NCBI GenBank assembly: GCA_017542475.1
Contig: JAFXXD010000055.1
Location: forward strand, 1-64,000
Direction: 5' to 3'
Source of the DNA: Ruminococcus sp.
GTDB taxonomy: Bacteria > Bacillota > Clostridia > Oscillospirales > Ruminococcaceae
Length of the DNA stretch: 64,000 nucleotides
Shown here piece by piece: positions 354-47,413 of this stretch. The notes under the pieces were generated by a model. That model was not told where the DNA came from. It ran no database searches and saw only the letters and a list, made by a program, of their open reading frames with translations. The first letter of the stretch is position 1, and the number at the start of each line of letters is the position of its first letter. Both the position numbers and the translations under genes were made by a program.

Positions 354-3329
354 ATGCAAATAAAAAAGATAATTTCAGCAGCAACAGCATTATGTCTGTT
401 CGGAGCATCAATACAGTTCGGCGGCTTCCCTGCGGCTGACATTTCAGACGCGGCGGAGGAGCTCAGCTTCAACGGCTTCACATATATGCTGAATACACGC
501 GGCAATATCACGATAAAGGGCTATACAGGCAGCGATACCTCGGTCATTGTGCCTGACACGATAGACGGTCTGCCCGTCACGACTATACTCTCCGAGGCGT
601 TCTACAATAAGGTGCGCGGAGTATATATTCCCAAGAGCGTTGTTTCCATAGGTGAAAACCTGATGTGGAACGGAAACGGCGATGACTCGGTTATTTTCGG
701 AGAAGCAGGCTCGTATGCAGAGACATATTCACAGGACAACAGGTTCAATTTCTATTCTGTTGATTCACTCAGCGGTTCTTTCGGTGATGATATACAGTGG
801 AAATTCGATATTGAGACCTTCTCCCTCTCTGTTTCGGGAAGCGGGGCTATGCCTGTGTACACGGGGTATGACATCTATACGCTCGAATCCTACAAGGCAA
901 AGCAGAATATCCCGTGGTACGGCTTCAGGCACGCTATCCTTTCCGCAGATATCGGCGGCACAGTATCCACTGTCGGAGAAGCCGCTTTCTACGAATGTGA
1001 CAAAATGAAAACCGTCACAATGGGCGACAGTGTAACGAAAATAGATAATTATGCTTTCTCGGAGTGCGAGGTGATGGAAAGCATAGAGTTCTCCGATTCG
1101 TTATCATATATCGCACCGCACGTTTTTGTCCGCTGCTACAAGCTGACGGAGGTGGAGCTTCCTCCCGCATTGAAAACGATAACGTTCTCGACCTTCAATG
1201 GCTGCGATACCCTCAGTGCTGTTAATGTAGACGCCAAAAACGGGAAATACTGCTCGGTGGACGGCGTAGTGTACAGCAAGGATATGTCTGTGCTTTACTT
1301 CTATCCCGACGCAAAGACGGACAAGAGCTTCACAGTTCCCGACACAGTCACAACGATAGAGGATTATGCCGTGGAAAATGCGCAAAATCTCGAAGAGCTC
1401 ACACTCTCCGATAAGCTTGAATATATCGGCTCGGAGGCTCTTGCTCTTACGGGCGTGAAGAGTCTCACGATACCCGAAAGCGTAAAAACGCTTGAATATT
1501 ACTGTCTGTACAGCAACGCGCTCTCGACGGTGGTATTCAAGGGCTCTGCTCCGAGCCACAGCAAATCACTGTTCAATACTCGCGGTACCAATACTACAGA
1601 TGTGTACTGCCACTTCTCGGATACGAGCTGGTATACATTTATGGACGAATTCACAGAGAATATCAATTGGATAGACCTTGATGCCTTCCCCGAAAACGGT
1701 ATCGAGCTCGGTGAAACGAGCGTTTCGGTAAAGGAGAGAGACGAATGTACTGTAGGATTCAAGGCTTCGCCTGATATTGCCGATTCATTGATATGGAAGA
1801 GCAGCAACAATTCAGTTGCAACAGCTAACAACGGCGTTATTACAGGCATAAGCAAGGGCTCGTGTACCATTACTGTCTCGGATGCGAGCGGCAGGTATTC
1901 AGCAGTATGCAAGGTGACTGTTACCGCAGGAAGCGCTGCGGCAAGTCAGGAGCCTGTTGTATCCGTCAGCGGAGCACTGTCATCGAACGAATCCGCGAAC
2001 AGCTATATGACGTATGGCAATACTGTCAGGAGCTATCTCAGCGAGACGTCTGACGGACTTCTCGAAAGAGTGGAATACACGGATTCAAAGGTCATCGTCG
2101 AGAGATATAAGAAGGCAGGAGGAGCTCCCGCAAAGACATTTGAAATCGAGCCCGCATACTCGATCTTCGGAGGCTTCTGCTTCGGAGAAAAGTACAATTA
2201 TATCGTCTCGGGACAGACGAACAAGACAAAGTCGAGCGGCGTGAACGTTCTGTGCGTGGAAAAGTATTCAAAGGACTGGAAGAAGCTCTCGTCACTTGAG
2301 ATACCGTCCTCGGATACATATATCCCATTCGACGCAGGCTCATGCAGGATAGCAGAAAAGGACAACCTGCTGTTTATCCACGCCGCACAGGAGCTCGTTA
2401 TAGGGCATCAGTCAAATATGACATTCAAGATAGACACGGATAAAATGGAGCTGCTTGAATCCATGACCTTCGTAAGCACCATTTCTACGCTGTCTAATTT
2501 TGAACAGGAGGGCTTTGTAAGTCATTCCTTCAATCAGTTCATAATAGAGGAGGACGGCTATGTCTACCGTGTAGACCACGGTGAGGGTGATGATTACGGC
2601 ATAAATGTCAGCAAATGCAAGACTGACGGAAGCATCAAGGAGGTATCAACGGTAATACCGTATTCGTTTATCAACGGCACATGGAACGAAACGGGTGCTT
2701 CGATAGGCGGATTTGAGCTCTCGTCGGGAAATATCATCGTCGCTGCGAGCACTATTGAACAGCTTCCCGAAAACTACCCGAATGGTCAGCGCAATATTAT
2801 GCTCGCTATCACTTCAAAGTCCCTCAAGAATCCGCGCACAGTGTGGCTTACGCAATATAAGAAGAACAGCGGTGTGACAGCTAAAACTCCTCATATCGTC
2901 AGGATCGGCAGCGAGCAGTTCCTCGTAATGTGGGAGGAAGCTGCGAATGGGGCAAAGATAACCAAGTCTGTTATGGTAGACGGAAGCGGTAACAAGCTGA
3001 CAGATATTGTTTCCTTGAACTATCCTCTTTCTGACTGCCTGCCGCAGATGATGTCTGACGGTTATATCCGCTGGTATGTCTCAAACGGCAATGGTGTAAA
3101 TATCTATGCAATAGATCCGTATAAGCTTGATTCGTATTCATCGGGTGTTAAGGGCGATGTCAACTGCGACGGCTCATTTTCAGTGGCAGACCTCGTAATG
3201 CTACAGAAGGAGCTTTTGGGAAGCGGCACGGTTTTCAGCTGGAAGAACGGTGACCTCTGCAAGGACGAGCTTTTGGATACGTTTGACCTCGTTATGATGA
3301 GGAAGCTGCTTGTGTCGCAGAAGAAATAA
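354..3329 (+). CDS. Secreted LRR (BspA-like) protein with BIG2 and dockerin-like modules
   Basis: Predicted 991-aa extracellular protein. ATG 354 is chosen because GGAGGGA lies just upstream and it begins a typical signal peptide (MQIKKIISAATALCLFG). The reading frame stays open further upstream, but without a signal. Residues about 40-440 hold BspA-type leucine-rich repeats (repeated I-x-x-x-A-F-x-x-C and V-x-I-P-x-S-V patterns). Residues about 446-522 are a bacterial Ig-like BIG2 domain (SVATANNGVITGISKGSCTI). Residues about 540-925 are a beta-rich region not recognised. Residues about 932-990 look like a type I dockerin with two calcium-loop/helix halves (GDVNCDGSFSVADLVMLQ and a more diverged GDLCKDELLDTFDLVMMRKL). 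Dockerins bind cohesins of cellulosome-type scaffolds, so the protein is probably a non-catalytic, scaffold- or surface-attached binding protein. The next gene is convergent across a repeat and an inserted island. Confidence 0.85.
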   Translation: MQIKKIISAATALCLFGASIQFGGFPAADISDAAEELSFNGFTYMLNTRGNITIKGYTGSDTSVIVPDTIDGLPVTTILSEAFYNKVRGVYIPKSVVSIGENLMWNGNGDDSVIFGEAGSYAETYSQDNRFNFYSVDSLSGSFGDDIQWKFDIETFSLSVSGSGAMPVYTGYDIYTLESYKAKQNIPWYGFRHAILSADIGGTVSTVGEAAFYECDKMKTVTMGDSVTKIDNYAFSECEVMESIEFSDSLSYIAPHVFVRCYKLTEVELPPALKTITFSTFNGCDTLSAVNVDAKNGKYCSVDGVVYSKDMSVLYFYPDAKTDKSFTVPDTVTTIEDYAVENAQNLEELTLSDKLEYIGSEALALTGVKSLTIPESVKTLEYYCLYSNALSTVVFKGSAPSHSKSLFNTRGTNTTDVYCHFSDTSWYTFMDEFTENINWIDLDAFPENGIELGETSVSVKERDECTVGFKASPDIADSLIWKSSNNSVATANNGVITGISKGSCTITVSDASGRYSAVCKVTVTAGSAAASQEPVVSVSGALSSNESANSYMTYGNTVRSYLSETSDGLLERVEYTDSKVIVERYKKAGGAPAKTFEIEPAYSIFGGFCFGEKYNYIVSGQTNKTKSSGVNVLCVEKYSKDWKKLSSLEIPSSDTYIPFDAGSCRIAEKDNLLFIHAAQELVIGHQSNMTFKIDTDKMELLESMTFVSTISTLSNFEQEGFVSHSFNQFIIEEDGYVYRVDHGEGDDYGINVSKCKTDGSIKEVSTVIPYSFINGTWNETGASIGGFELSSGNIIVAASTIEQLPENYPNGQRNIMLAITSKSLKNPRTVWLTQYKKNSGVTAKTPHIVRIGSEQFLVMWEEAANGAKITKSVMVDGSGNKLTDIVSLNYPLSDCLPQMMSDGYIRWYVSNGNGVNIYAIDPYKLDSYSSGVKGDVNCDGSFSVADLVMLQKELLGSGTVFSWKNGDLCKDELLDTFDLVMMRKLLVSQKK

Positions 3330-3384
3330 TGCCCGTTATTATCCCATATTACGCTGACGGCATAACAGCATAGAACACAAGAAT

Positions 3385-3474
3385 CCCGATACATAACTGT
3401 GATGCCTATATAGCAGTATTATGTGAACCTACTGGGAAAAACCTTTCTGAAGAAAGGTTCTTTCCCAGACCATA
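3385..3474 (+). repeat. Left fragment of dispersed palindrome-containing repeat
   Basis: From CCCGATAC through ATGTGAACCTACTGGGAAA this matches, in reverse complement, the outer arm of the repeat at 38575-38650. The match then degrades around a hairpin (AACCTTTCT/AGAAAGGTT) and ends near GACC at 3467-3470, just before the terminal repeat at 3475. The rest of the same repeat unit resumes at about 9361, on the far side of the mobile island. The split arrangement is inferred from comparison of the copies within this window. Confidence 0.65.
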
Positions 3475-3494
3475 AGCATATTCTTAGGGAAGTA
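3475..3494 (+). repeat. Left terminal inverted repeat of the island
   Basis: AGCATATTCTTA-GGGA-AGTA. It pairs with 9341-9360 in inverted orientation. It lies about 55 bp beyond the recombinase stop codon. Confidence 0.65.
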
Positions 3495-3509
3495 TATTAT
3501 TTATTATGT

Positions 3510-3533
3510 CTCCGAGGGAGTGATCCCTCGGAG
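3510..3533. terminator. Strong hairpin terminator near left end of island
   Basis: A perfect 10-bp stem (CTCCGAGGGA / TCCCTCGGAG) with a GTGA loop, followed on the plus strand by ATTTGTTTTATT. It would stop plus-strand read-through from the LRR gene side and may also end the recombinase transcript from the other side. Confidence 0.7.
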
Positions 3534-3550
3534 ATTTGTTTTATTCTGCT

Positions 3551-5188
3551 TCACATTTCAAATGTCTGTATCATTACGCCGTCGAGTTTGATATCCTTGT
3601 CAGCTAAGAATGAGAAGTGTACCGTTATATCGTTCATGCAGGTCCTCGAACGCTTTTCAGCCTTTTCGTGAACTTCGATACGCTTTATGAAGGCTCGAAG
3701 AAGCTGTGAAGTAACTTCCGTCACATCAACGTATTTCTTGGCGTTGTTGATGAACTCTCTGACACATTTCTCTTTTATCGCCAGATAGCTTGTATGCGAA
3801 TCAAGCTCCTGAAGTTTTTCCTTCAGTTCAGACTGCTCCTTCTCGTAGCCGGATGCAAGGCTGTCGTACCGCTCGGGAGTCACTCTGCCTGTGACTCTGT
3901 CCATGTACAGCATACTGATAGCGCTTTCAAGTTGATTGATCCTTGTTTCATACTCGCTGCGCTTAGATTCGTTGTTTTTAGATTGGGACATTGCTTCATT
4001 TTCGCCCTTGCTCATAGCCATTTCATAGAACTCCTCAGAATGCTCTCTTGCATACGTTGTAACTCTTTTTAATGCTTCCAGTACGATTGCATCAACCACT
4101 TCTTCCCTGATATAATGGGCGGTGCAGTTGCTCTTTCTTTTTTCGTATCGACCGCACATAAAGTTGTTATGTGTCTTTTTGTTTCGGTGAAGATAGAGCC
4201 TTGAACCGCACTCCGCACAGTAGAGATACCCTGCATATTTGTCCATTTCACCGTTGCCGTTAGCACGTTTTCTGCCGACAAAGTGTTTTTGAACAAGCTC
4301 GAACAATCCTCTGTCGATAATTGGCTCATGAGTATTTTCAAATATGAGAACCTTTTCAGGATCATTCTTGATACGCTTTTTCAGTTTGTTCGACTTGGTA
4401 TAAGTTTTGAAATTGACTGTATCACCGCAGTACATCTGATTCAGAAGCATACTGCGAACGGACGCAATCGACCAAGCGTAAGGCTTGTCCAATTTTGGAT
4501 TTCCCGAACGACTGCCAGTCTTATTAAAGGCGTATACGCTCGGAGACAGTACTTCCTCTTCTTCAAGAGTATTGCATATCTTCTTCATACCAATGCCGCT
4601 CGCGTACATTTCAAAGATGCGTTTGACCACAGGTGCAGTCTCAGGATCGGGGATTATTCGCTTTGAGTCATTCGTGTCTTTCATGTATCCATAAGGCAAT
4701 GAAGCTCCGACACGCTCTCCTCGTTCTCCTTTGGCTTTCTGAATTGTTCTAATCTTCCGGCTCGTATCCTGCGCAAAAAAGTCGTTGAAGTAATTCTTAA
4801 TGCCCGACATATCATTCAAGCCGTTTATACTGTCAACGCCGTCGGAGATAGCTATGAATCGCACGTCATATGACGGGAATAGTATTTCCATAAGTCTGCC
4901 TGTTTCAAGGTGATCACGTCCAAGTCTTGACTGGTCCTTGACTATGACTGTTCCGACAAGTCCGCTTTCTATGTCTTTCAGCATACGAACATATTCAGGT
5001 CTGTTTTTGTTGACTCCGCTGTAACCGTCATCTATGTAGTATTGGCAGTTCTTGAAGCCGTTTTTGTCTGCGTACTCTTTCAGCAATAGCCTTTGATTTT
5101 CAATCGACAGCGACTCTCCTGCACGCAAGTCCTCCTGACTGAGGCGGCAGTACAGCGCTGTTATCTGATTCGCGTTTGATTCTTTCAT
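3551..5188 (-). CDS. Large serine recombinase (TndX/TnpX-like)
   Basis: 545 aa, normal length for clostridial large serine recombinases. The N-terminal resolvase domain has the nucleophile context YCRLSQED (Ser17) and the arginine motif SRLGRD (about 87-92). The central recombinase domain starts around residue 160 (GYMKDTNDSKRIIPDPETAP). A zinc ribbon (CAEC near 322 and further cysteines to about 357) is followed by a C-terminal coiled coil (about 400-470), as in the family. These enzymes excise and integrate elements by a phosphoserine intermediate without replication. The start at 5188 is preceded by AGGAGG. A TnpW-like gene lies just upstream and terminal repeats flank the region, so this is the likely mobility enzyme of the 3475-9360 island. 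Confidence 0.93.
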   Translation of the reverse strand: MKESNANQITALYCRLSQEDLRAGESLSIENQRLLLKEYADKNGFKNCQYYIDDGYSGVNKNRPEYVRMLKDIESGLVGTVIVKDQSRLGRDHLETGRLMEILFPSYDVRFIAISDGVDSINGLNDMSGIKNYFNDFFAQDTSRKIRTIQKAKGERGERVGASLPYGYMKDTNDSKRIIPDPETAPVVKRIFEMYASGIGMKKICNTLEEEEVLSPSVYAFNKTGSRSGNPKLDKPYAWSIASVRSMLLNQMYCGDTVNFKTYTKSNKLKKRIKNDPEKVLIFENTHEPIIDRGLFELVQKHFVGRKRANGNGEMDKYAGYLYCAECGSRLYLHRNKKTHNNFMCGRYEKRKSNCTAHYIREEVVDAIVLEALKRVTTYAREHSEEFYEMAMSKGENEAMSQSKNNESKRSEYETRINQLESAISMLYMDRVTGRVTPERYDSLASGYEKEQSELKEKLQELDSHTSYLAIKEKCVREFINNAKKYVDVTEVTSQLLRAFIKRIEVHEKAEKRSRTCMNDITVHFSFLADKDIKLDGVMIQTFEM

Positions 5189-5285
5189 TTTTATCCTCCT
5201 GTTCCGAAGCTATACTTCTGGAATCAAACCGAATAGGAGCTACCAACAGTATACTCCTATTCGGCTCGAAAGTCCAGACTTTTTT

Positions 5286-5444
5286 TCAGCTTACTTTTTC
5301 GCCGTTTATCAGGTGCTTCAGCTTATCGTAAGCTGTTTCTGTTTCATTTTCGGGAAGAGGAAACGTAAAGGTCACGTTATACACCTTCCCGTCAATCTCA
5401 ATTTTGTCATCAGAATAATATCTGACTTCTTCTTTTTCAGCCAT
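5286..5444 (-). CDS. Small TnpW-like transposon protein
   Basis: 52 aa, starting at ATG 5444 with GGAAGGAG nine bases upstream and ending 97 bp before the recombinase start. The core IEIDGKVYNVTFTF followed by ENETETAYDKLKHLI resembles the small TnpW-type proteins next to TndX/TnpX recombinases in clostridial elements, which share a KIGxTxYxV...DKIxRLI pattern. Their role is unclear; they are used as markers of such elements. The assignment rests on pattern memory over a short protein, so moderate confidence. Confidence 0.6.
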   Translation of the reverse strand: MAEKEEVRYYSDDKIEIDGKVYNVTFTFPLPENETETAYDKLKHLINGEKVS

Positions 5445-5654
5445 TCGTTCATACTCCTTCCATTGATCCCGTTCATGTTTCTGATGTGATTTTCGTTGTT
5501 CATTTTCATCATTCCTTTCACTTTAATTGACTTGTAATGTGAGGGGGTTCGGGGGTTCTCCCTGACAAGCAATGTGGCAGGCGGAATGCCGTCTGCGATG
5601 CTTGCATTTCATACTTCTGCCGCCTGTACTGCTCCGTCAGCGGTAGTTTTCTCC

Positions 5655-5759
5655 TTATGTCAATGCCGCCACACTCGCTCCACGTTGCGCGACAACCCGC
5701 TTCTGTGGGTACAGGTGGGATACCTGTCCGTTTTGGGTATCGGCGGCAAAAACGGGCAT
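5655..5759 (-). CDS. Very short ORF in island spacer, doubtful
   Basis: A 34-codon frame (MPVFAADTQNGQVSHLYPQK...) with no clear ribosome site. Its wording looks protein-like and it sits within mobile-element DNA, so it may be a conserved miniprotein or a decayed gene end. Function not recognised. Confidence 0.25.
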   Translation of the reverse strand: MPVFAADTQNGQVSHLYPQKRVVAQRGASVAALT

Positions 5760-5767
5760 TTTTGTGC

Positions 5768-5910
5768 GTGACGGTAACTTTGCCGTGACAGTAACTCTAC
5801 CGACACGGAATTCTACTGACACGCCCTGCAGATGAGGCTATATAGACGTTTGCGAGCTGTCTGCAAGGTCGGGCGTGACGGTAACATTTCTACCGTCACT
5901 ACTGTCACGC
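5768..5910. repeat. Repeated GTGACGGTAAC boxes
   Basis: GTGACGGTAAC occurs at 5768-5778 and 5875-5885, with GTGACAGTAAC at 5785-5795. Inverted versions TACCGTCAC (5891-5899) and CTGTCACGC (5902-5910) follow. The first pair are 17 bp apart. They look like binding sites for a DNA-binding protein (recombinase, replication or regulatory). No protein is assigned. Confidence 0.5.
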
Positions 5911-5919
5911 TGTAATTTG

Positions 5920-6358
5920 CTGATAGAAAAAGTGGGAGCAGTATCCTTTTTGCAAATCGGACTGTTTTAAGCACATTTTTATCGTCCCCTAATAGTATTA
6001 TGGTTTGATTTTCCAGTTTTGCATAAAATCAGGTAACAATTTCAATTCGTTCAAAACGACAATAATTAAACTCAGGGACAGCATATTTTCGAGCCTTAGC
6101 AATCAATCAACTGACAGTTTGTGAAGATATATCATCGTTTGTGGGATTTCAAGGGACGGCAGGGACATCATTCACAGCGCATAGTAATATGCTGCCACTG
6201 CTGTCCCTGTCGAACTGATTTCTCTAACAGCAAATAGCAAAATGTGGGAGTAGTATCCTTTTTGCATTTTGGTATAAAAATACCGCAGTCAGATGTACCG
6301 ACTGCGGAGTTCGCCTTCTAATATGTATTATGGGAACTTTTTTTCATTTGCATAAAAT
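5920..6358 (+). repeat. Duplicated non-coding block in island spacer
   Basis: A block with GTGGGAGCAGTATCCTTTTT, then about 45 bp, then CTAATAGTATTATGG and TTTGCATAAAAT (about 5931-6030) recurs at about 6243-6358 with small changes. Between them are GGGACGGCAGGGACA and GCTGTCCCTGTCG, a loose inverted pair. No convincing gene is seen across 5760-6500. The duplication may mark recombination sites or an old insertion. Confidence 0.45.
6282..6307. repeat. Hairpin in island spacer
   Basis: A stem CCGCAGTC/GACTGCGG with a roughly 10-nt loop, without a following T-run. It may be a protein-binding or recombination structure rather than a terminator. Confidence 0.4.
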
Positions 6359-6485
6359 GTGGAGACATTTATTTTTCGTTTGTGGAGACATTTTTTAGCA
6401 ACTATTCAAATTTATAAATCGTAAAATTAAACAACAAACAGCTTGATTTGTTGTGCATATGCACGTTTTTGTGTTGTTGCAACAA
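6358..6485 (+). promoter_or_regulatory. Operator-like repeats before the helicase operon
   Basis: TGTGGAGACATTT appears twice (6358-6370 and 6381-6393; 23-bp period). Two perfect 12-bp palindromes follow: GTGCATATGCAC (6453-6464) and TTGTTGCAACAA (6474-6485), the second ending just before the -35 box. The layout suggests controlled expression of the cargo. The regulator is unknown and no regulator is encoded in the element. Confidence 0.5.
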
Positions 6486-6491
6486 AAGCAC

Positions 6492-6520
6492 TTGTTTAAA
6501 AGCATAAGATATGGTATAAT
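6492..6520 (+). promoter_or_regulatory. Promoter of helicase-HNH operon
   Basis: TTGTTT and TATAAT with a 17-bp spacer, 33 bp before the start codon at 6553. Confidence 0.75.
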
Positions 6521-6552
6521 TATAATATATTTTTGAATATGAGGTGATTATT

Positions 6553-8751
6553 ATGCCAATTTCTGTAGAAAACTTAAACGCCCAAACCGTTACTCCGTCT
6601 AACGGAACAAATCCGCGTACTCTTTATGAGCATCAAGTAGATGCGCTTAAAGCTATGAACGCGATAAATAAGAAGCAAGAATTCCGTACACTACTTGTAT
6701 TGCCAACCGGTGGAGGTAAAACATTAACTGCTGTCTATTGGCTTTTACAGAATGCGGTGGATAAGGGCAAGAAGATTCTTTGGATCGCACATCGTCACCT
6801 CCTTCTTGAACAGGCAGCAGATACATTTATCAACAATGCTTATACCAATATTATGATAAACCATACATCTTTCCGTTACCGTATCATATCAGGAATGCAT
6901 GATAAGCCTATCCATATCAAGAATGATGACAACATCCTTATAGTCAGCAAGGACAGCATAAACCGCAGTCTTGAAAGACTTGATAAATGGCTTAAGAATG
7001 AAGATGTGTTTCTCGTTATTGATGAAGCTCATCATGCTGTTGCTAAGACATATCGTAAGACCATACAGTATGTCGAGAAATACGCAAAATCTATGAAGCT
7101 GCTGGGACTTACAGCAACGCCATTCCGTACATCAGAAAAGGAAAGAGGTGCTCTTTACCAAATATTTACTGATGACATAGTTTATAAGATTGATTTAAAG
7201 ACTCTTATTGACAGGCACATCCTCGCATATCCCAAATTCATTGAGGGGTGTGAAACTGGTATTGAATTAGGCGATAGAATTGGACTGAAAAATATACAGG
7301 AAATCGAAAACTTTGATGCGCTGCCAAAAAATATTCAGGATTTCTTGCAAGATAATACTAAGCGCAATGCTTTTATTGTAAATCACTATGTTAAGAATAA
7401 GGATAAATATGGTAAAACCATCGTATTTGCAATAAACAAGACAAATGCAATTGCACTAAATAAAATATTTCATGAAAGAGGAATACGTTCAGACTATATT
7501 GTTTCTGATGTGCGTAATGCTGATCTTGGAATTACAATATCAAGCAAAGAAAACGAGGAAAAAATCAAACTCTATCGAGATGGAAAACTTGATGTGCTAA
7601 TCAATGTTAATATCCTCACCGAAGGAACTGACCTTCCACAAACACATACCGTATTCCTTACTCGACCGACTATATCAAGAGTTTTTATGACACAAATGGT
7701 TGGCAGAGCGTTGCGCGGTGAAAAGGCTGGTGGTACAACCGATGCATATATCGTTCCTTTCATTGATGACTGGAATGGAAAGATCGCGTGGGTAAATCCG
7801 CAGTCATTACTTAAAGACGAATTTGAACCACAGGATACCCCTGCAAAGAAACAGCAGTATGAGCTGCGTGTGATTTCAATTTCCAAAATCGAAGAATTCG
7901 CGGCAATGCTTAATGAAGGTATTGATACATCTGCACTTGAACAGATCGAGATGATAGAACGTATTCCTGTTGGATACTATATGTTCAGTACACTTGAATG
8001 GAATCATCAGATACTTGTTTATAACAGCACTCAGTCATCATATCAGTCATTAATAGCTGACCTTTCACAGATAATGGAATTGTATGGGATTGAAGATGAA
8101 ACCATAGCAGATGATGTGTTACCAGAAATGACAGATTATTGTATGGAACAGTATTTTGATGAAGACTTGGTACCTGCTTGTCAGCGCAGCGACGTTGAAC
8201 ACTTGCTTCTATTCTATGCACAGAAAGCGGTTGATCCTCTGTTTGTTCCTCTTGACGATATTGTGCGGAAAAAGTTGGATGTCTCTGAAATTGCCAAGAA
8301 ATTTGAAGAAGAGGCTATGACAGGTCGTGAACGCAAGGCATATCTTGACAGCTTATGGAATGCCGAGGACAGCGTATATAAGCTCTATTATTCCAGTCCA
8401 TATATTTTTAAACGCATGATAGATATTGAAATGGACAAACTCGATGGATATATGGAAACTGACTATGCTGCACCGCAAACAAAGGCTGAACTTCGCGAAC
8501 TGGAAGACCTTCCATTAGAGGAAATCATCAATAGGTATCCTAATGTTGGCATACCGCTGAAAATGAGAGTATTTGATAAGGCTCGCAACGCTGACGGTAA
8601 TTATGTATGTGCAAGCTGCAAAAAAGTATTTAGCAACAGAAAGGACTTGCAAGTTGACCACATTAAGCCAATGGCTAAAGGCGGAAGAACTGTTGAATCC
8701 AATCTTCAGATATTATGCCGTTTCTGTAATCAGCGGAAGGGTGATAAATAA
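6553..8751 (+). CDS. SF2 DEAH helicase fused to C-terminal HNH nuclease
   Basis: 732 aa. ATG 6553 is chosen because GAGGTGA lies six bases upstream; a GTG at 6544 overlaps that site. The N-terminal half has the superfamily 2 motor: Walker A LPTGGGKT (50-57), DEAH box (about 157-160), motif III LTATPF (about 186) and motif VI QMVGRALRG (about 381). The middle (about 430-660) is acidic, helical and unrecognised. The C-terminus is an HNH module: CASC (686-689), VDHIKPMAKGG (about 701-711) and NLQILCRFC (about 717-725), with the two CxxC pairs holding structural zinc and the DH forming the active centre. A DNA translocase joined to a nuclease is typical of phage-defence or restriction proteins, but no named system is recognised. 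It overlaps the next gene by one base (TAATG). The gene is AT-rich compared with host genes, supporting transfer. Confidence 0.88.
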   Translation: MPISVENLNAQTVTPSNGTNPRTLYEHQVDALKAMNAINKKQEFRTLLVLPTGGGKTLTAVYWLLQNAVDKGKKILWIAHRHLLLEQAADTFINNAYTNIMINHTSFRYRIISGMHDKPIHIKNDDNILIVSKDSINRSLERLDKWLKNEDVFLVIDEAHHAVAKTYRKTIQYVEKYAKSMKLLGLTATPFRTSEKERGALYQIFTDDIVYKIDLKTLIDRHILAYPKFIEGCETGIELGDRIGLKNIQEIENFDALPKNIQDFLQDNTKRNAFIVNHYVKNKDKYGKTIVFAINKTNAIALNKIFHERGIRSDYIVSDVRNADLGITISSKENEEKIKLYRDGKLDVLINVNILTEGTDLPQTHTVFLTRPTISRVFMTQMVGRALRGEKAGGTTDAYIVPFIDDWNGKIAWVNPQSLLKDEFEPQDTPAKKQQYELRVISISKIEEFAAMLNEGIDTSALEQIEMIERIPVGYYMFSTLEWNHQILVYNSTQSSYQSLIADLSQIMELYGIEDETIADDVLPEMTDYCMEQYFDEDLVPACQRSDVEHLLLFYAQKAVDPLFVPLDDIVRKKLDVSEIAKKFEEEAMTGRERKAYLDSLWNAEDSVYKLYYSSPYIFKRMIDIEMDKLDGYMETDYAAPQTKAELRELEDLPLEEIINRYPNVGIPLKMRVFDKARNADGNYVCASCKKVFSNRKDLQVDHIKPMAKGGRTVESNLQILCRFCNQRKGDK

Positions 8752-9266
8752 TGGTACACACTAAATACAAGTTTACTCCTCAAGATATTGCAGTATATCT
8801 ATTGATAGCTGATTTGCCGCGTTCTCGTGAAGATAAGATAATTGAAGATTTTTTTCAAGAATACAATGATGAAATAGTTTTCAACTATCGTAATGACTTT
8901 CTTGAGTTACGCCGCCAAATACATAATTCAATGATATTACTTGAAATGAGTGATGAAGAATATGCTGAAACTCAATTGATAATGCGAGAACTCCAAATTG
9001 AAAAAACAGAATTCGAGCCTAATTACTTTGGAGCATACTTTAAACTTATAAAACTTCAATTGTTATATTCAGGAAAAGATTATCAACGCATCAAACTCAG
9101 AACCCTTTTGAATGATTTTGGCTATAAAAGACGAACTGAAGCCTTAGTTAATAGCATAACGCGTGCGATGAAGGCACTAAACCTACAGCCTTATTTAAAG
9201 CAATATGAACCATGTGATTTGGCAGAAATTACACTTGATCAGATGGTAATAATAAGGCTTAATTGA
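8751..9266 (+). CDS. Unknown 171-aa partner of the helicase-HNH protein
   Basis: Starts inside the helicase stop (TAATG), so the two are translationally coupled. The product is soluble, mostly helical and charged (KYKFTPQDIAVYLLIADLPR at residues 4-23, acidic middle, KRRTEALVNSITRAMKAL near 125-142). It has no signal peptide, membrane segment or recognised catalytic motif. The C-terminal third could be a small DNA- or protein-binding helical domain. The tight coupling and shared low GC argue for a required subunit, immunity or sensor partner. Function unknown. Confidence 0.8.
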   Translation: MVHTKYKFTPQDIAVYLLIADLPRSREDKIIEDFFQEYNDEIVFNYRNDFLELRRQIHNSMILLEMSDEEYAETQLIMRELQIEKTEFEPNYFGAYFKLIKLQLLYSGKDYQRIKLRTLLNDFGYKRRTEALVNSITRAMKALNLQPYLKQYEPCDLAEITLDQMVIIRLN

Positions 9267-9282
9267 TACCCATCAGTATTAA

Positions 9283-9315
9283 AAGCCGCCACTTATAATA
9301 TACAAGTGGCGGCTT
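9283..9315 (+). terminator. Terminator of helicase-HNH operon
   Basis: A 12-bp perfect stem (AAGCCGCCACTT / AAGTGGCGGCTT) with a 9-nt loop and a short T-rich tail, 16 bp after the 171-aa gene. The A-tract on the other side could let it work in both directions. Confidence 0.8.
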
Positions 9316-9340
9316 TCGTCCTATTCGGTTTGTTTTCCTT

Positions 9341-9360
9341 TACTACGATAAGAATATGCT
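9341..9360 (-). repeat. Right terminal inverted repeat of the island
   Basis: Read on the minus strand it is AGCATATTCTTA-TCGT-AGTA, matching the left end at 3475-3494. Host repeat sequence begins right after it. Confidence 0.65.
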
Positions 9361-9640
9361 ACACCCTTTTCCAAAGACTTTTAGTCCAAATTTTGCCCCT
9401 ATGGGGTACTCTCATTGAAAAGTAAGACTTACTCTTTTCATATCAGGAGAGTACCCCATAGGGGCAAAATTTAAATTGAAAGTTTTAGGGGAGGAGTTTG
9501 AGGGTGACTCCCCGCAGTGCGGGGAGATGTCGCGAAGCGACAGAGGTGACCGCCGCTGTTAGCGGAACCCTTTTTCAAAAGGGTTTTCCTCAATAAGTCC
9601 GCGTATTATTGCTGTAAGAGTATCACGGCTATAGTCACAC
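9361..9640 (+). repeat. Dispersed repeat, copy 1 (palindrome plus stem-loops)
   Basis: Matches 38300-38590 in inverted orientation over almost its whole length. Contents in order: outer arm (CTTTTCCAAAGACTTTTAGT); a 26-bp inverted repeat (9388-9413 / 9447-9472) with a 33-nt loop; a segment AAATTGAAAGTTTTAGG; the hairpin CTCCCCGCAGTGCGGGGAG; the hairpin GTCGCGAAGCGAC; and a hairpin CCCTTTTTCAAAAGGG. It lies between convergent genes and would work as a bidirectional terminator region for the ABC permease gene. This accounts for the 381-bp gene-free stretch 9267-9647 together with the operon terminator and island end. Confidence 0.8.
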
Positions 9641-9647
9641 CGATTTT

Positions 9648-12449
9648 CTATTTGCTTACCGAGTGATTGAGCGTACGGATCGCGGGCAGAGCCGCAAGGA
9701 ATGCGATAATGATGTTAAGCACGAGTGAAGCTGCCAGTGCGGCGGCTCCGCTTGCGGCAGCATTGAGGTTGAGTATGAACCGCATTATCAGCTGATAGCC
9801 GACGACGCTGATGAGTGTTCCCGCTATTGCCGAGACTGACGAGAACAGCAGGCTTTCGAGCACGACCGTCCCCGTGAGCTGCCTGCGCGTCATACCGACC
9901 GCCCTCATCATTATGAGCTCGCGGCTGCGGTTGAGAGCGCTCGTGTTTATGGTATTCATCATCGAGACGATACCGCACAGCCATATCGACAGCATAAGCG
10001 TCAGAACGATCTTGACGATAGTGTTGACAAATTCTGTTATTCCCGTGCCTGCCTTGTACTCGTCGTAGACGTTGTCCACGGAGAAATTCATCGAATCTAT
10101 TGCCGTTTTAGCGGCGGGATAATGCTCGGCGTCCCTGACAAGGAAGTACATATTCGCGGACATTGACTTGCCGTATTTGATAAGCTCCTGAGCCTTGCTC
10201 ATCGGCACAAGTATGAACGTGCTGTAATCGGCGTGAGCAATGCCGCGTATCTTTATTTCCTCGTCCTGATTGCCGCTGAGTGTTATAGACTCGGAGAGCT
10301 CTGTATAGCCGTATCCGAAGTCCGTATCGCCGTCGTATCTCTGCTGAGGAAGGAACAGAACCGCATCGCCCTTTTCAAACTCCTCATAGCTGATACCGAG
10401 GAGCTCCGAATAGGTCGTGATATCGCGCTCTTCATAGGGGACAGCCATATCGCTGAGTCCCTTGTGACCGCACTCGAATCTGGTTTTATCCATTGTCATA
10501 ATGCTCATCGGGATAATGTCACCCTGCATATTCATATCGAGTGCCGCACTTTCATCGCCGAGCTTTTTCAGCTCTTTTTCGGTTAGGACGATACTGCCGT
10601 GACATTCATAGTACGAGGACTTGAAATTGCCTGTGTCCATAAGCTCCTTCTGGATAGAATCAGCGTCAGCGCCGTCGGTGTGGATGTAGAAGTCGTAGGT
10701 CGGCTCGCCGATATAGTCCTTGACCTCGCCGTACAGCGTCAGTCCGAGCTGTATGCAGAGCGTGAATATCAGTACTCCGAGCGCCATTGCCACCGACGAT
10801 ATCAGGAAGCGGCGCTTGGTACGGAAGATGTTCTTGAACGTATAGCGTATCATAAAGCGCTTGGAGCTGAGACTGAGCTTCGACTTCTTTTGCTTCCTGC
10901 GCTTCTTCGTGCTCTTTGGCTTGCCGTAGTTGAGAGCCTCCGCGGGCGAGAGCTTCCTTGACGCCCACATCGCTGAGGTGTAGGTGGAAATGAAAACTCC
11001 CGTCAGGCAGAGCAGAGTGCATATCAGTATCGTCAGCGGACTGGCGTAGAATTCGACGTATTCCACTCCCACGCCTGCGAGCGAATCGAAGAAGTATTTG
11101 CAGGCAAGGGTAGAGCTTACAATACCGAGCGGCAGAGCTGTCAGCGCGTAGAAAAGTCCCTCAGTGAAAACGAGCGTCGCGAGCTGCCCCTTTGAAGCTC
11201 CCATTATGCGCAGAGCCGCGAACTGCACGCTTCTCTCCTGCACGGAAATCTCGAAGGCGTTGTCGATGATGAATCGCGAGAACAGCCACACGATGACGAG
11301 CAGCACGAGGTACGCGCCGATGTACGGAACAGCCGTGCCTATGCCCTCAACGCTCCTGAATGAGGTCAGCATATAGGGCGTGTTGAGCTCCATTCCGTAG
11401 CCGTGCATTGCGAATTTGAAATCGTCGTAGGCGTCGTCGTCCGTGAAGCCGAGGTCTTTCAGCAGGAGCTCCATATTGTACTCGAACGAGGTGTTGGGGT
11501 TGGTCTTTACCCAGCAGTTGCCGAAGTTATCGCAAATGAAGCCGATAGGCGAATCGTTCAGCGGCGAGAGGTCGATATCGGTATCAAGCGCCGTACCAAT
11601 TCTCATATATGTGCCCGACTCGCCTTCAAGTCCGCTTTCAAAGCCTGCTATCCTGCCCGTTACCTTCACGGGAGTGCTCGTCTCAGCCGCGTCGAGCCTG
11701 ATTTCATCTATGTCCGCGTAAGCCGAAAGCATATCGAACAGGTTGTACTTTATTGTCCTTCTGTTATTGCGCAGGACTTGGTCTACCTCATCGCCTTGAA
11801 GGATATAGTAGAACTCCTCGGAGCTCGCGTTCAGCTCCGCGAGCTTGCTGCGGACAGCCTTCATCGCCTCGGAGTTTTCTCCGAGCATACCCGTCGTGGG
11901 CGTGATAGTCATCGTTACAGTGTCGCCGACCTCATAGCCGGCCTTCGCAAACCACGACGGAACTATCATCTCATCGGGAGTGAGGTCGTCGGTGTTCTTG
12001 AGCATAGTGTTCCGCATTTCGAGGTTGCCGGTCAGCGAGGAGCGGAATATCGACCTTGCAACTCTGTGTGTGCCGTCATCGAGCCTTACATCAAAGTAGC
12101 CGACAGGGTCGCCCACATTCTGCTCATAGGGGAACTGATACTGGTCGAAGATGTAGGTGTGGTTCTTGTCCACAGCGACATGGTTCGATATTATTTTCGC
12201 CGCCTCAATTGGCGATTTCACCGTCTCGGACTCTCCCGCCCTTACGGCTTCAAGCACGCCTTGAAGGTTAGCCTCCCACTCGCCGTTTTCCTCGACGACA
12301 GCGTTGCGTATCGAGCGGATAGTGCTCGATGTGTAGACGAGGAAGGTATTCAGCACAAATACCGACAGCGTGACGCTGAGGAACATCAGTGCCGTGCGGA
12401 GCTTCTGCCGCGTGACATATTTGAGCGCAAGTCTGAACAGGTGTTTCAT
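9648..12449 (-). CDS. ABC transporter permease with two FtsX/MacB-type domains
   Basis: 933 aa. The N-terminal membrane segment (about 18-40) follows RLALKYVTRQKLRTALMFL, the usual entry to FtsX-type permeases, then a large extracytoplasmic domain. Three membrane segments lie at about 375-500, a second entry segment near residue 545 (TFKNIFRTKRRFLISSVAMA), a second outside domain, and three final membrane segments (about 800-930). The layout equals two fused FtsX cores, as in Firmicutes peptide or lipoprotein exporters and antimicrobial-peptide resistance transporters. It overlaps the upstream ATPase gene by four bases (ATGA). It ends in TAG, rare in this window. Substrate unknown; the linked two-component system suggests envelope stress or peptide sensing. 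Confidence 0.88.
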   Translation of the reverse strand: MKHLFRLALKYVTRQKLRTALMFLSVTLSVFVLNTFLVYTSSTIRSIRNAVVEENGEWEANLQGVLEAVRAGESETVKSPIEAAKIISNHVAVDKNHTYIFDQYQFPYEQNVGDPVGYFDVRLDDGTHRVARSIFRSSLTGNLEMRNTMLKNTDDLTPDEMIVPSWFAKAGYEVGDTVTMTITPTTGMLGENSEAMKAVRSKLAELNASSEEFYYILQGDEVDQVLRNNRRTIKYNLFDMLSAYADIDEIRLDAAETSTPVKVTGRIAGFESGLEGESGTYMRIGTALDTDIDLSPLNDSPIGFICDNFGNCWVKTNPNTSFEYNMELLLKDLGFTDDDAYDDFKFAMHGYGMELNTPYMLTSFRSVEGIGTAVPYIGAYLVLLVIVWLFSRFIIDNAFEISVQERSVQFAALRIMGASKGQLATLVFTEGLFYALTALPLGIVSSTLACKYFFDSLAGVGVEYVEFYASPLTILICTLLCLTGVFISTYTSAMWASRKLSPAEALNYGKPKSTKKRRKQKKSKLSLSSKRFMIRYTFKNIFRTKRRFLISSVAMALGVLIFTLCIQLGLTLYGEVKDYIGEPTYDFYIHTDGADADSIQKELMDTGNFKSSYYECHGSIVLTEKELKKLGDESAALDMNMQGDIIPMSIMTMDKTRFECGHKGLSDMAVPYEERDITTYSELLGISYEEFEKGDAVLFLPQQRYDGDTDFGYGYTELSESITLSGNQDEEIKIRGIAHADYSTFILVPMSKAQELIKYGKSMSANMYFLVRDAEHYPAAKTAIDSMNFSVDNVYDEYKAGTGITEFVNTIVKIVLTLMLSIWLCGIVSMMNTINTSALNRSRELIMMRAVGMTRRQLTGTVVLESLLFSSVSAIAGTLISVVGYQLIMRFILNLNAAASGAAALAASLVLNIIIAFLAALPAIRTLNHSVSK

Positions 12450-35091: not shown

Positions 35092-35440
35092 GCTCTGCCC
35101 TTGACCCGCCAGAGGCTCTGCCTCTGGACTCCGCAGGGGAACACAGTTCCCCTGACCCCTAACTACGTTGCCGCTCGCAAGCTCGCTCACTTTGTTCAAA
35201 AGGCAAAGTCTGCTTTCGGCGGGGAACAAATATCGGAATCGTTCATTCAACATATTGTAGGGGCGAATATTATCCGCCCGCAATTATACCGACAAACCAC
35301 CTGACATTATCTGTAGGGGACGCCGCCCCTCACTAACCGTGCCGTCCCCTCTGTCAGCTTCGCTGACATCTCCCCACACTGTGGGGAGTCACCCTGCAAG
35401 CCTTTGAAAAGGCTTGAGCGAAACTTTCGGCTTCGCGCTG
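35092..35440 (-). repeat. Composite of three dispersed repeat families
   Basis: 35092-35226 is an inverted CCGAAAGCAGAC-family unit. 35258-35335 carries GTAGGGGCG and GTAGGGGACG units. 35336-35440 holds the GTCAGCTTCGCTGAC and CTCCCCACACTGTGGGGAG hairpins and the GCAAGCCTTTGAAAAGGC unit, as at 47320-47413. A TTAGCC run follows (35480-35515). No gene seen in 35069-35514. Confidence 0.8.
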
Positions 35441-38299: not shown

Positions 38300-38655
38300 C
38301 ATAAATAAAGCCCGAAAGCGTAACCGTAATACTCATATTGAAGTAATACGCGGACTTATTGAGGAGGGACTCTTTTGAAGAAGGGTCCCCGCTTACGGCG
38401 GCGGTCCCCTCTGTCGCTTCGCGACATCTCCTCGCACTGCGGGGAGTCACCTCAAACTCGTCTCCTAAAACTTTCAATTTAAATTTTGCCCCTATGGGGT
38501 GCTCTCATTGAAAAGTAGGACTTACTTTTTTCGTATCAGGAGAGCACCCCATAGGGGCAAATTTTGGACTAAAGGTCTTTGGAAAAGGTCCTTTCCCGGT
38601 AGGTTCACATAATGCTGCTGTATAGGTATTACAGCTAACTGTATCGGGTTTTTTT
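38300..38655 (-). repeat. Dispersed repeat, copy 2 (uninterrupted)
   Basis: Inverted relative to the copy at 9361-9640 and carrying the extra outer arm also seen at 3385-3474. Parts on the plus strand: GTAATACGCGGACTTATTGA, GTCGCTTCGCGAC, CTCGCACTGCGGGGAG, the palindrome 38481-38564 with loop 38507-38539, the CCTTTCCCGGTAGGTTCACA arm, and CTGTATCGGG followed by seven Ts just at the stop of the ABC gene. It fills the gap 38280-38653 between convergent genes and probably ends both transcripts. Confidence 0.85.
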
Positions 38656-47244: not shown

Positions 47245-47413
47245 GCGCCTTCGATTATTTCGCCGTTCTTTAAAGCTGTGAACGGCGACGAGGGACGCTG
47301 TCCCTCACTAACCGTGCCGTCCCCTCTGTCAGCTTCGCTGACATCTCCCCACACTGTGGGGAGTCACCCTGCAAGCCTTTGAAAAGGCTTGAGCGAAACT
47401 TTCGGCTTCGCGC
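47245..47413 (-). repeat. Dispersed intergenic repeat (TTTCGCTCAAGCC family), inverted
   Basis: On the minus strand it repeats 28170-28290 and 49208-49330; on the plus strand it also holds GTCAGCTTCGCTGAC and CTCCCCACACTGTGGGGAG as at 35345-35395. No gene is seen in 47124-47487. Confidence 0.8.

Follow-up and report, generated by a model that had tools for sequence, protein, structure and literature searches.

A small serine-recombinase element bordered by the two parts of a dispersed hairpin repeat in Ruminococcus, with a candidate defence operon as cargo

Known large serine recombinases (LSRs) act as integrases with a single target site or with many. In the Tn4451 (TnpX) and Tn5397 (TndX) family, the core is GA. 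IS110/IS1111 elements, which use a DEDD recombinase with a guide RNA, reportedly land in REP palindromes: they share with the element described here a palindromic dispersed repeat as landing site, and differ from it in not being LSR elements. A 2-bp identical core, as in the present element, is given for Tn4451 in an excerpt of PMC5704250, where MGIVflInd1 is described as a relaxase-less IME carrying only oriT. The DUF4368 LSRs are described as multi-targeting, with many insertion sites (excerpt of PMC10083194). IME_Rho_tet, an IME of gut Bacillota, has mobC, a relaxase, a serine recombinase and terminal inverted repeats; it is often found in MAFF2 ORFs, carries tetracycline resistance and, unlike the present element, has kept its relaxase (excerpt of PMC12904643). 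LSR elements, oriT-only IMEs and multi-targeting LSRs are already known; among the matches listed from the open-licence literature, no description was found of LSRs that target dispersed repeats, nor of a repeat that several recombinase clades share as target, each at a position of its own.

The window (the whole stretch analysed, 64,000 nucleotides of Ruminococcus sp. assembly GCA_017542475.1, contig C21 of a host genome that is 94% complete) contains an integrated element of 5,894 bp, located between an LRR/dockerin gene (354-3329, plus strand) and an ABC permease gene (9648-12449, minus strand; product named by eye). The element spans positions 3472-9365, counted without the left CC and with the right one: the flanks are joined in native unoccupied copies of the target, and relatives have the same ends. 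Its genes are those of a 545-aa LSR and of a helicase-HNH protein; it also has a weak TnpW-like ORF, a 171-aa ORF and a noncoding stretch. Our main reading, with a probability of roughly 80% as a whole, is that of a small integrative LSR element that docks in a dispersed repeat, borrows a relaxase and carries defence cargo.

The LSR gene (3551-5188, minus strand) is an open frame with Resolvase, Recombinase, zinc-ribbon and DUF4368 domains, which confirms the large serine recombinase of a sequence-only reading made earlier; the TnpW-like gene named beside it is a 77-aa ORF (5286-5519, minus strand) that scores only 20.1 bits against PF14202, under the curated cut-off of 25. The best solved relative of the LSR is the TnpX N-terminal domain (2mhc, E 1.5e-34). 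The same kind of LSR, the tnpW-like ORF and this best PDB match make the element similar to the Tn4451/Tn5397 family. It differs in its LSR, only 34.8% identical to TndX-annotated sequences, in its apparently fixed position in a dispersed repeat, and in having CC as core and no relaxase, where Tn4451/Tn5397 proper have the GA core and a relaxase gene. An inverted-pair search of the element located a hairpin at 5222-5269, in the gap that separates the recombinase gene from the tnpW-like ORF; its CCTATTCGGTTT motif, upstream of the recombinase, reappears inverted beside the right end (9319-9335).

Both flanks of the element are repeat sequence. The left part (3379-3471) ends in hairpin 1 (3434-3465) and the attL core CC (3470-3471), and is 83% identical to window positions 38584-38654 and 91% identical to C12:80156-80233, on another contig of the same genome. 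The right part (9364-9631) starts with the attR core CC (9364-9365) and is 84% identical to the copy at 38321-38588. The match to the 38.3-kb copy bears out the earlier proposal that the flanks are consecutive parts of one dispersed repeat. The repeat had also been described as whole at 38300-38655: this copy does match both flanks, but the junction hairpin of about 32 bp is missing, and the copy was rejected as an exact empty site. Intact unoccupied copies were found in the same genome at C12:80214-80249 and C26:15996-16031, where the repeat is uninterrupted by the island (...CCCAGA-CC-CTTTTCC) and also extends 5' of the hairpin. More fragments of the repeat are located in the window at 35341-35395 and 47316-47370. 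The terminal inverted repeats of the repeat, the mark of MITEs, are imperfect (alignments of about 74 columns for the 38-kb copy and about 34 for that on C26), and no Rfam family was matched at gathering scores across the whole window.

Unoccupied sites, in which the hairpin arm runs directly into TTTCCAAAGACTTT without an element, were counted in the genus: 217 were obtained (per-genome counts summed) from 38 of 100 genomes, and the reversed control pattern was absent from all 100. In the family search, one of 59 genomes of other genera had such a site. Among the 100 genus genomes, nine of the 10 with clade A (the recombinase clade of the window element) and 29 of the other 90 had an unoccupied site (Fisher p 0.0006, only indicative because the genomes are related). 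A search with the left end alone, minus its flank, found 20 copies in 12 of 125 genus genomes and, with the reversed control, none in the same 125. Inspection by eye placed 18 of the 20 next to the right arm of repeat hairpin 1; of the two exceptions, L203 is a decayed version and L219 joins an apparent other part of the repeat. Two of the 20 copies are both ends of one rearranged locus in genome G045. In G045, a recombinase gene is located between two left ends that face each other (L090, contig C49, 6617-8794), and the same inverted junction is seen at L091 (contig C21, 6470-7622), as a rearrangement or an assembly fault.

The sequence-only reading had suggested looking for an empty site and for the same ends at other loci. 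Unoccupied targets exist in the same genome and in the genus, an empty version of the element's own locus not being seen among genomes that represent each species once; the relatives are located elsewhere, the repeat hairpin standing at the border of those 18 left ends. The unoccupied copies and the borders of the relatives agree with the proposal that the island integrated into the repeat, and the predicted insertion by the LSR is strongly supported.

The inverted ends, putative attP half-sites at 3475-3494 (plus strand) and 9341-9360 (minus strand), are present as first reported, with the match corrected from 16/20 to 17/20 and the first 12 positions perfect. With palindromes and repeats counted, perfect 12-mer inverted pairs number 29.5 in the 6.4-kb stretch and on average 4.0 in 100 Markov resamples, so the inverted ends alone are not striking; they are significant because they are conserved in relatives. 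The left flank closes with ...TTTCCCAGA-CC and the right flank opens with CC-CTTTTCCAAAG; the predicted excised joint reads AAGAATATGCT-ACA-CC-ATA-AGCATATTCTT, which puts CC at the exact centre of the inverted ends. CC is at the symmetry centre in all six elements with both ends seen, and six right ends have the same layout (one, in G074, decayed). The border layout of the window element is found in R. flavefaciens SAb67 (G087), R. flavefaciens YRD2003 (G038), G045 contig C21, uncultured Ruminococcus RUG127 (G409) and the decayed 377-bp remnant of G074, whose right flank does not read as repeat. This remnant (L207/L229, contig C31) has both element ends without a recombinase gene, like a miniature non-autonomous copy.

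A 3-bp RCC core, hinted by the YRD2003 element (GAG-CC / ACG-CC, with G before CC on both sides), was considered and was ruled out by RUG127 (AGC-CC / ACA-CC): the core is settled as CC because RUG127 has C and A before it. This short core is common to attL and attR and is in single copy at unoccupied sites. The LSR would recombine attP (the two inverted ends around the central CC) with attB, just after hairpin 1 of the repeat, and would leave CC on both sides; the borders are seen in the sequence, and the chemistry is presumed by analogy with known serine integrases.

For the comparison of element DNA across genomes, three candidates per genome were scored, so the matches listed are a lower bound. 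The window element is 95.0% identical to that of RUG127 over 6,002 aligned columns, ends included, in another copy of the repeat, and the genes flanking the island in the window do not match at the RUG127 locus. Identity to the SAb67 element is 87% in the recombinase part and 90% in the cargo part, and window positions 7200-8199 (1 kb of the helicase gene) are identical. Among the matches listed, host DNA matches of at least 300 bases are 71-85% identical in RUG127 (four matches) and 67-85% in SAb67 (eight), for a 17.6-kb stretch of the window and with shorter matches, many of them repeats that reach higher identity, omitted. Because the element exceeds the identity of host DNA (67-85%) to both genomes, it appears to have moved horizontally. 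The element of YRD2003 is a close relative, with the same backbone and a solute-binding protein as other cargo. This alternative cargo is located beside the backbone at L087 (G038 contig C6, 4166-5566) and L092 (G009 contig C15, 11143-13248); the gene is shorter in G038 than in G009, and the likeness of the two was judged by eye.

The cargo of the window element consists of two genes on the plus strand: the first (6553-8751) encodes a 732-aa SF2 helicase with a C-terminal HNH domain (Pfam ResIII/DEAD, Helicase_C and HNH), and the second (8751-9266), which overlaps the end of the first by one base, encodes an unclassified 171-aa partner. A conserved backbone stretch is located ahead of the cargo (6317-6395, 82-93% identical in the seven loci L093, L105, L106, L107, L108, L116 and L117). 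The AT-rich operon with terminator that had been noted from the sequence is there in full: the GC content is 38.7% for the helicase-HNH gene and 32.6% for the partner ORF (53.1% for the window), and a terminator-like inverted repeat follows at 9282-9316. In 29 aligned helicase sequences (the window's included), residues of the Walker A, DEAH and VI (QM-GR) motifs are invariant, as are D702, H703, N717 and N726 of the HNH motif.

A scan of genome contigs gave 58 helicase loci, of which 53 were analysed (L177, L193, L195, L196 and L197 were omitted, with short or broken matches). Of the 53 loci, 40 have an ORF matched by the partner profile no more than 60 bases downstream of the helicase gene; at L148 the partner is at +87 and was added to the alignment by eye, and the other 12 loci, including those of Hymenobacter and Methanoperedens, have no partner within 60 bases downstream. 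The partner, of about 175 residues in the conserved operon, falls in no curated family: nothing was found in NCBIfam, and only chance-level matches in Pfam, PADLOC (two, each in one of 39 members) and the PDB. For the first gene, PADLOC gave helicase-core and HNH matches only, and no named PADLOC system includes either cargo protein. At class level, the partner profile was matched in 3 of 291 genomes (the host genome and two weak matches). The helicase has three weak partial relatives in viral contigs and 1,156 matching plasmid records, all below 60% identity, two of which cover at least 80% of the protein.

Helicase and partner of the window are respectively 98.0% and 99.4% identical to those of RUG127, 88.7% and 74.9% identical to those of G040, and 98.9% and 52.0% identical to those of SAb67. 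The DNA identity between the window and SAb67 is 92-98%, then about 60% at the partner gene and 81% after it, and this drop and rise suggest that the partner gene was exchanged. Such a pattern would be expected of an exchangeable subunit for specificity or control, one exchange being no proof.

Domain content and operon conservation leave the chances that the cargo is a defence system about even. Its most likely role would be that of a two-gene anti-phage or anti-plasmid system, in which the helicase would move along DNA and cut via its HNH domain, and the partner may set recognition or control. Alternatively, the pair may serve the element itself, in DNA processing, maintenance or the exclusion of related elements. 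This is a serious contender that we nevertheless hold to be somewhat improbable: the cargo of mobile elements need not benefit the host, and the helicase core matches RadD (repair) and restriction helicases alike, none at the family cut-off, but the YRD2003 element has the same backbone without the pair and carries the solute-binding protein, and relatives of the helicase are spread over several phyla, with the pair found in many Bacillota.

The absence of a relaxase, and a size below that of mobilizable relatives, had been noted from the sequence, and both observations stand. The ORF list has no relaxase, tblastn with MobA (query from the related C24 element of the same genome) and MobC gave no match in the window element, which is without the own relaxase of canonical IMEs, and relatives have mobA and mobC where the window element has a junction (5520-5542, from alignment and tblastn). 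In related elements, MobA (PF03432 relaxase) and MobC (NikA-like) are found beside a block equivalent to the noncoding window positions 5538-5976. This block is 79-86% identical, over stretches of differing length, in the 11 mobC-bearing elements aligned, and MobC adjoins 11 of the 16 aligned blocks; C24 has MobA, MobC and a block that is 82% identical. The elements of the window, SAb67, YRD2003 and G098 contig C19 are without both mob genes and have a common junction; L115 is without them and has other upstream sequence, and RUG127, outside the block alignment, has no MobA or MobC match. The mob-less elements retain the block, and with it a well-conserved stretch that reads CACACTCGCTCCACGTTGCGCGACAA or nearly so. 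Iteron-like repeats (GACGGTAAC/GACAGTAAC) are present in the block at 5766-5888, and in relatives too. A repeat search found 28-bp direct repeats at 5927-5954 and 6239-6266 (span with the intervening segment, 5927-6266); the SAb67 element has a single copy, with the segment between absent, as if lost by recombination.

From its conserved place upstream of mobC in relatives, the block at 5538-5976 is a likely oriT. The element is kin to mobilizable elements with the layout end-LSR-tnpW-mobA-mobC-oriT block-cargo-end. Because it is without mobA and mobC and retains the block upstream of mobC, its transfer would most likely depend on a relaxase and an accessory protein borrowed from related elements, and on a conjugative helper. 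Such a helper was not seen, as the T4SS coupling protein (PF02534) was not found in the host genome; comparison with relatives makes trans mobilisation plausible. With relaxase-less, oriT-only IMEs, the element shares an integrase of its own, the lack of a relaxase and an oriT-like block common with relaxase-bearing elements. It differs from the MGIVflInd1 type in its serine recombinase, its Bacillota host and its likely relaxase donor, which would be an IME-like element and not an SXT ICE.

The missing mob genes and coupling protein would also suit a decayed island, a stationary remnant that lost its mob genes and kept its borders by descent, and decayed relatives do exist (G009 with a broken LSR, and the two-ended G074 remnant). 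We consider this improbable: the frames of LSR, helicase and partner are open in the window, RUG127 and SAb67, and the mob-less element is found in different repeat copies of three species at 87-95% identity, above host DNA and with the identical 1 kb of helicase gene in SAb67, which argues that it moved after the mob genes were lost. The mob-less layout also recurs with another LSR, in G098 contig C19.

Positions of element ends in the repeat were numbered on the C26 copy. In a tree of 29 recombinases, clade A (eight sequences) and clade C (five, including L227 and omitting the partial L141) have full support, and clade B (six) groups as one clade with L135, an LSR without a repeat match at its end. 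Clade A ends at repeat position ~71. The six clade-B recombinases, 61-64% identical to the window LSR and one of them on C12 of the same genome, end at position 202. The five clade-C recombinases are in the opposite orientation, with a BLAST edge at position 39; by eye, the break falls about 8 bases before that, within the hairpin 1 loop. Genus-wide, 11 clade-C ends were found in 10 of 125 genomes, 10 of them in the repeat (by eye). Exceptions to the standard repeat context are 2 of 20 clade-A ends (L203 and L219), L135 among the 7 clade-B recombinases of the tree, and L241 among the 11 clade-C ends. Two sisters of clade A and seven LSRs of an outer clade (including C24) do not abut the repeat, nor do L115 and L140, outside the tree. 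To judge from these edges, clades A, B and C each keep their own fixed position in the repeat. A DUF4368 domain and many insertion sites are shared with the multi-targeting LSRs, but here the sites belong to a single family of repeats, with one apparently fixed position per LSR clade.

The idea that the hairpin belongs to the element, the shared borders being element ends only, would explain the same arm at 18 of 20 left ends, but it is already contradicted and very improbable, as the arm runs into TTTCCAAAGACTTT without an element at the 217 sites in 38 of 100 genomes, repeat sequence lies 5' of the hairpin in C12 and C26, and other LSR clades cut the repeat elsewhere, one copy (G098 contig C2) having a clade-C end and a truncated clade-A end 23 bp apart.

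Docking of LSR elements in the repeat would draw on several, probably harmless, sites in many genomes, with at least two other LSR lineages docking at other positions. A wider proposal is more doubtful, and we put it forward as tentative: a mobile, genus-wide hairpin repeat may be a shared docking station for serine-integrase lineages, each with its own position, and relaxase-less hitchhikers may spread a new two-gene defence system with the small partner as exchangeable recognition subunit. The two cargo genes form a candidate defence operon of wide distribution, whose partner protein is named by no searched library. With three lineages at three positions of one repeat, the shift of LSR specificity along a single sequence is directly testable. 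The repeat gives many genomes several spare attB sites, and these sites and their recombinases could serve as integration tools for Ruminococcus.
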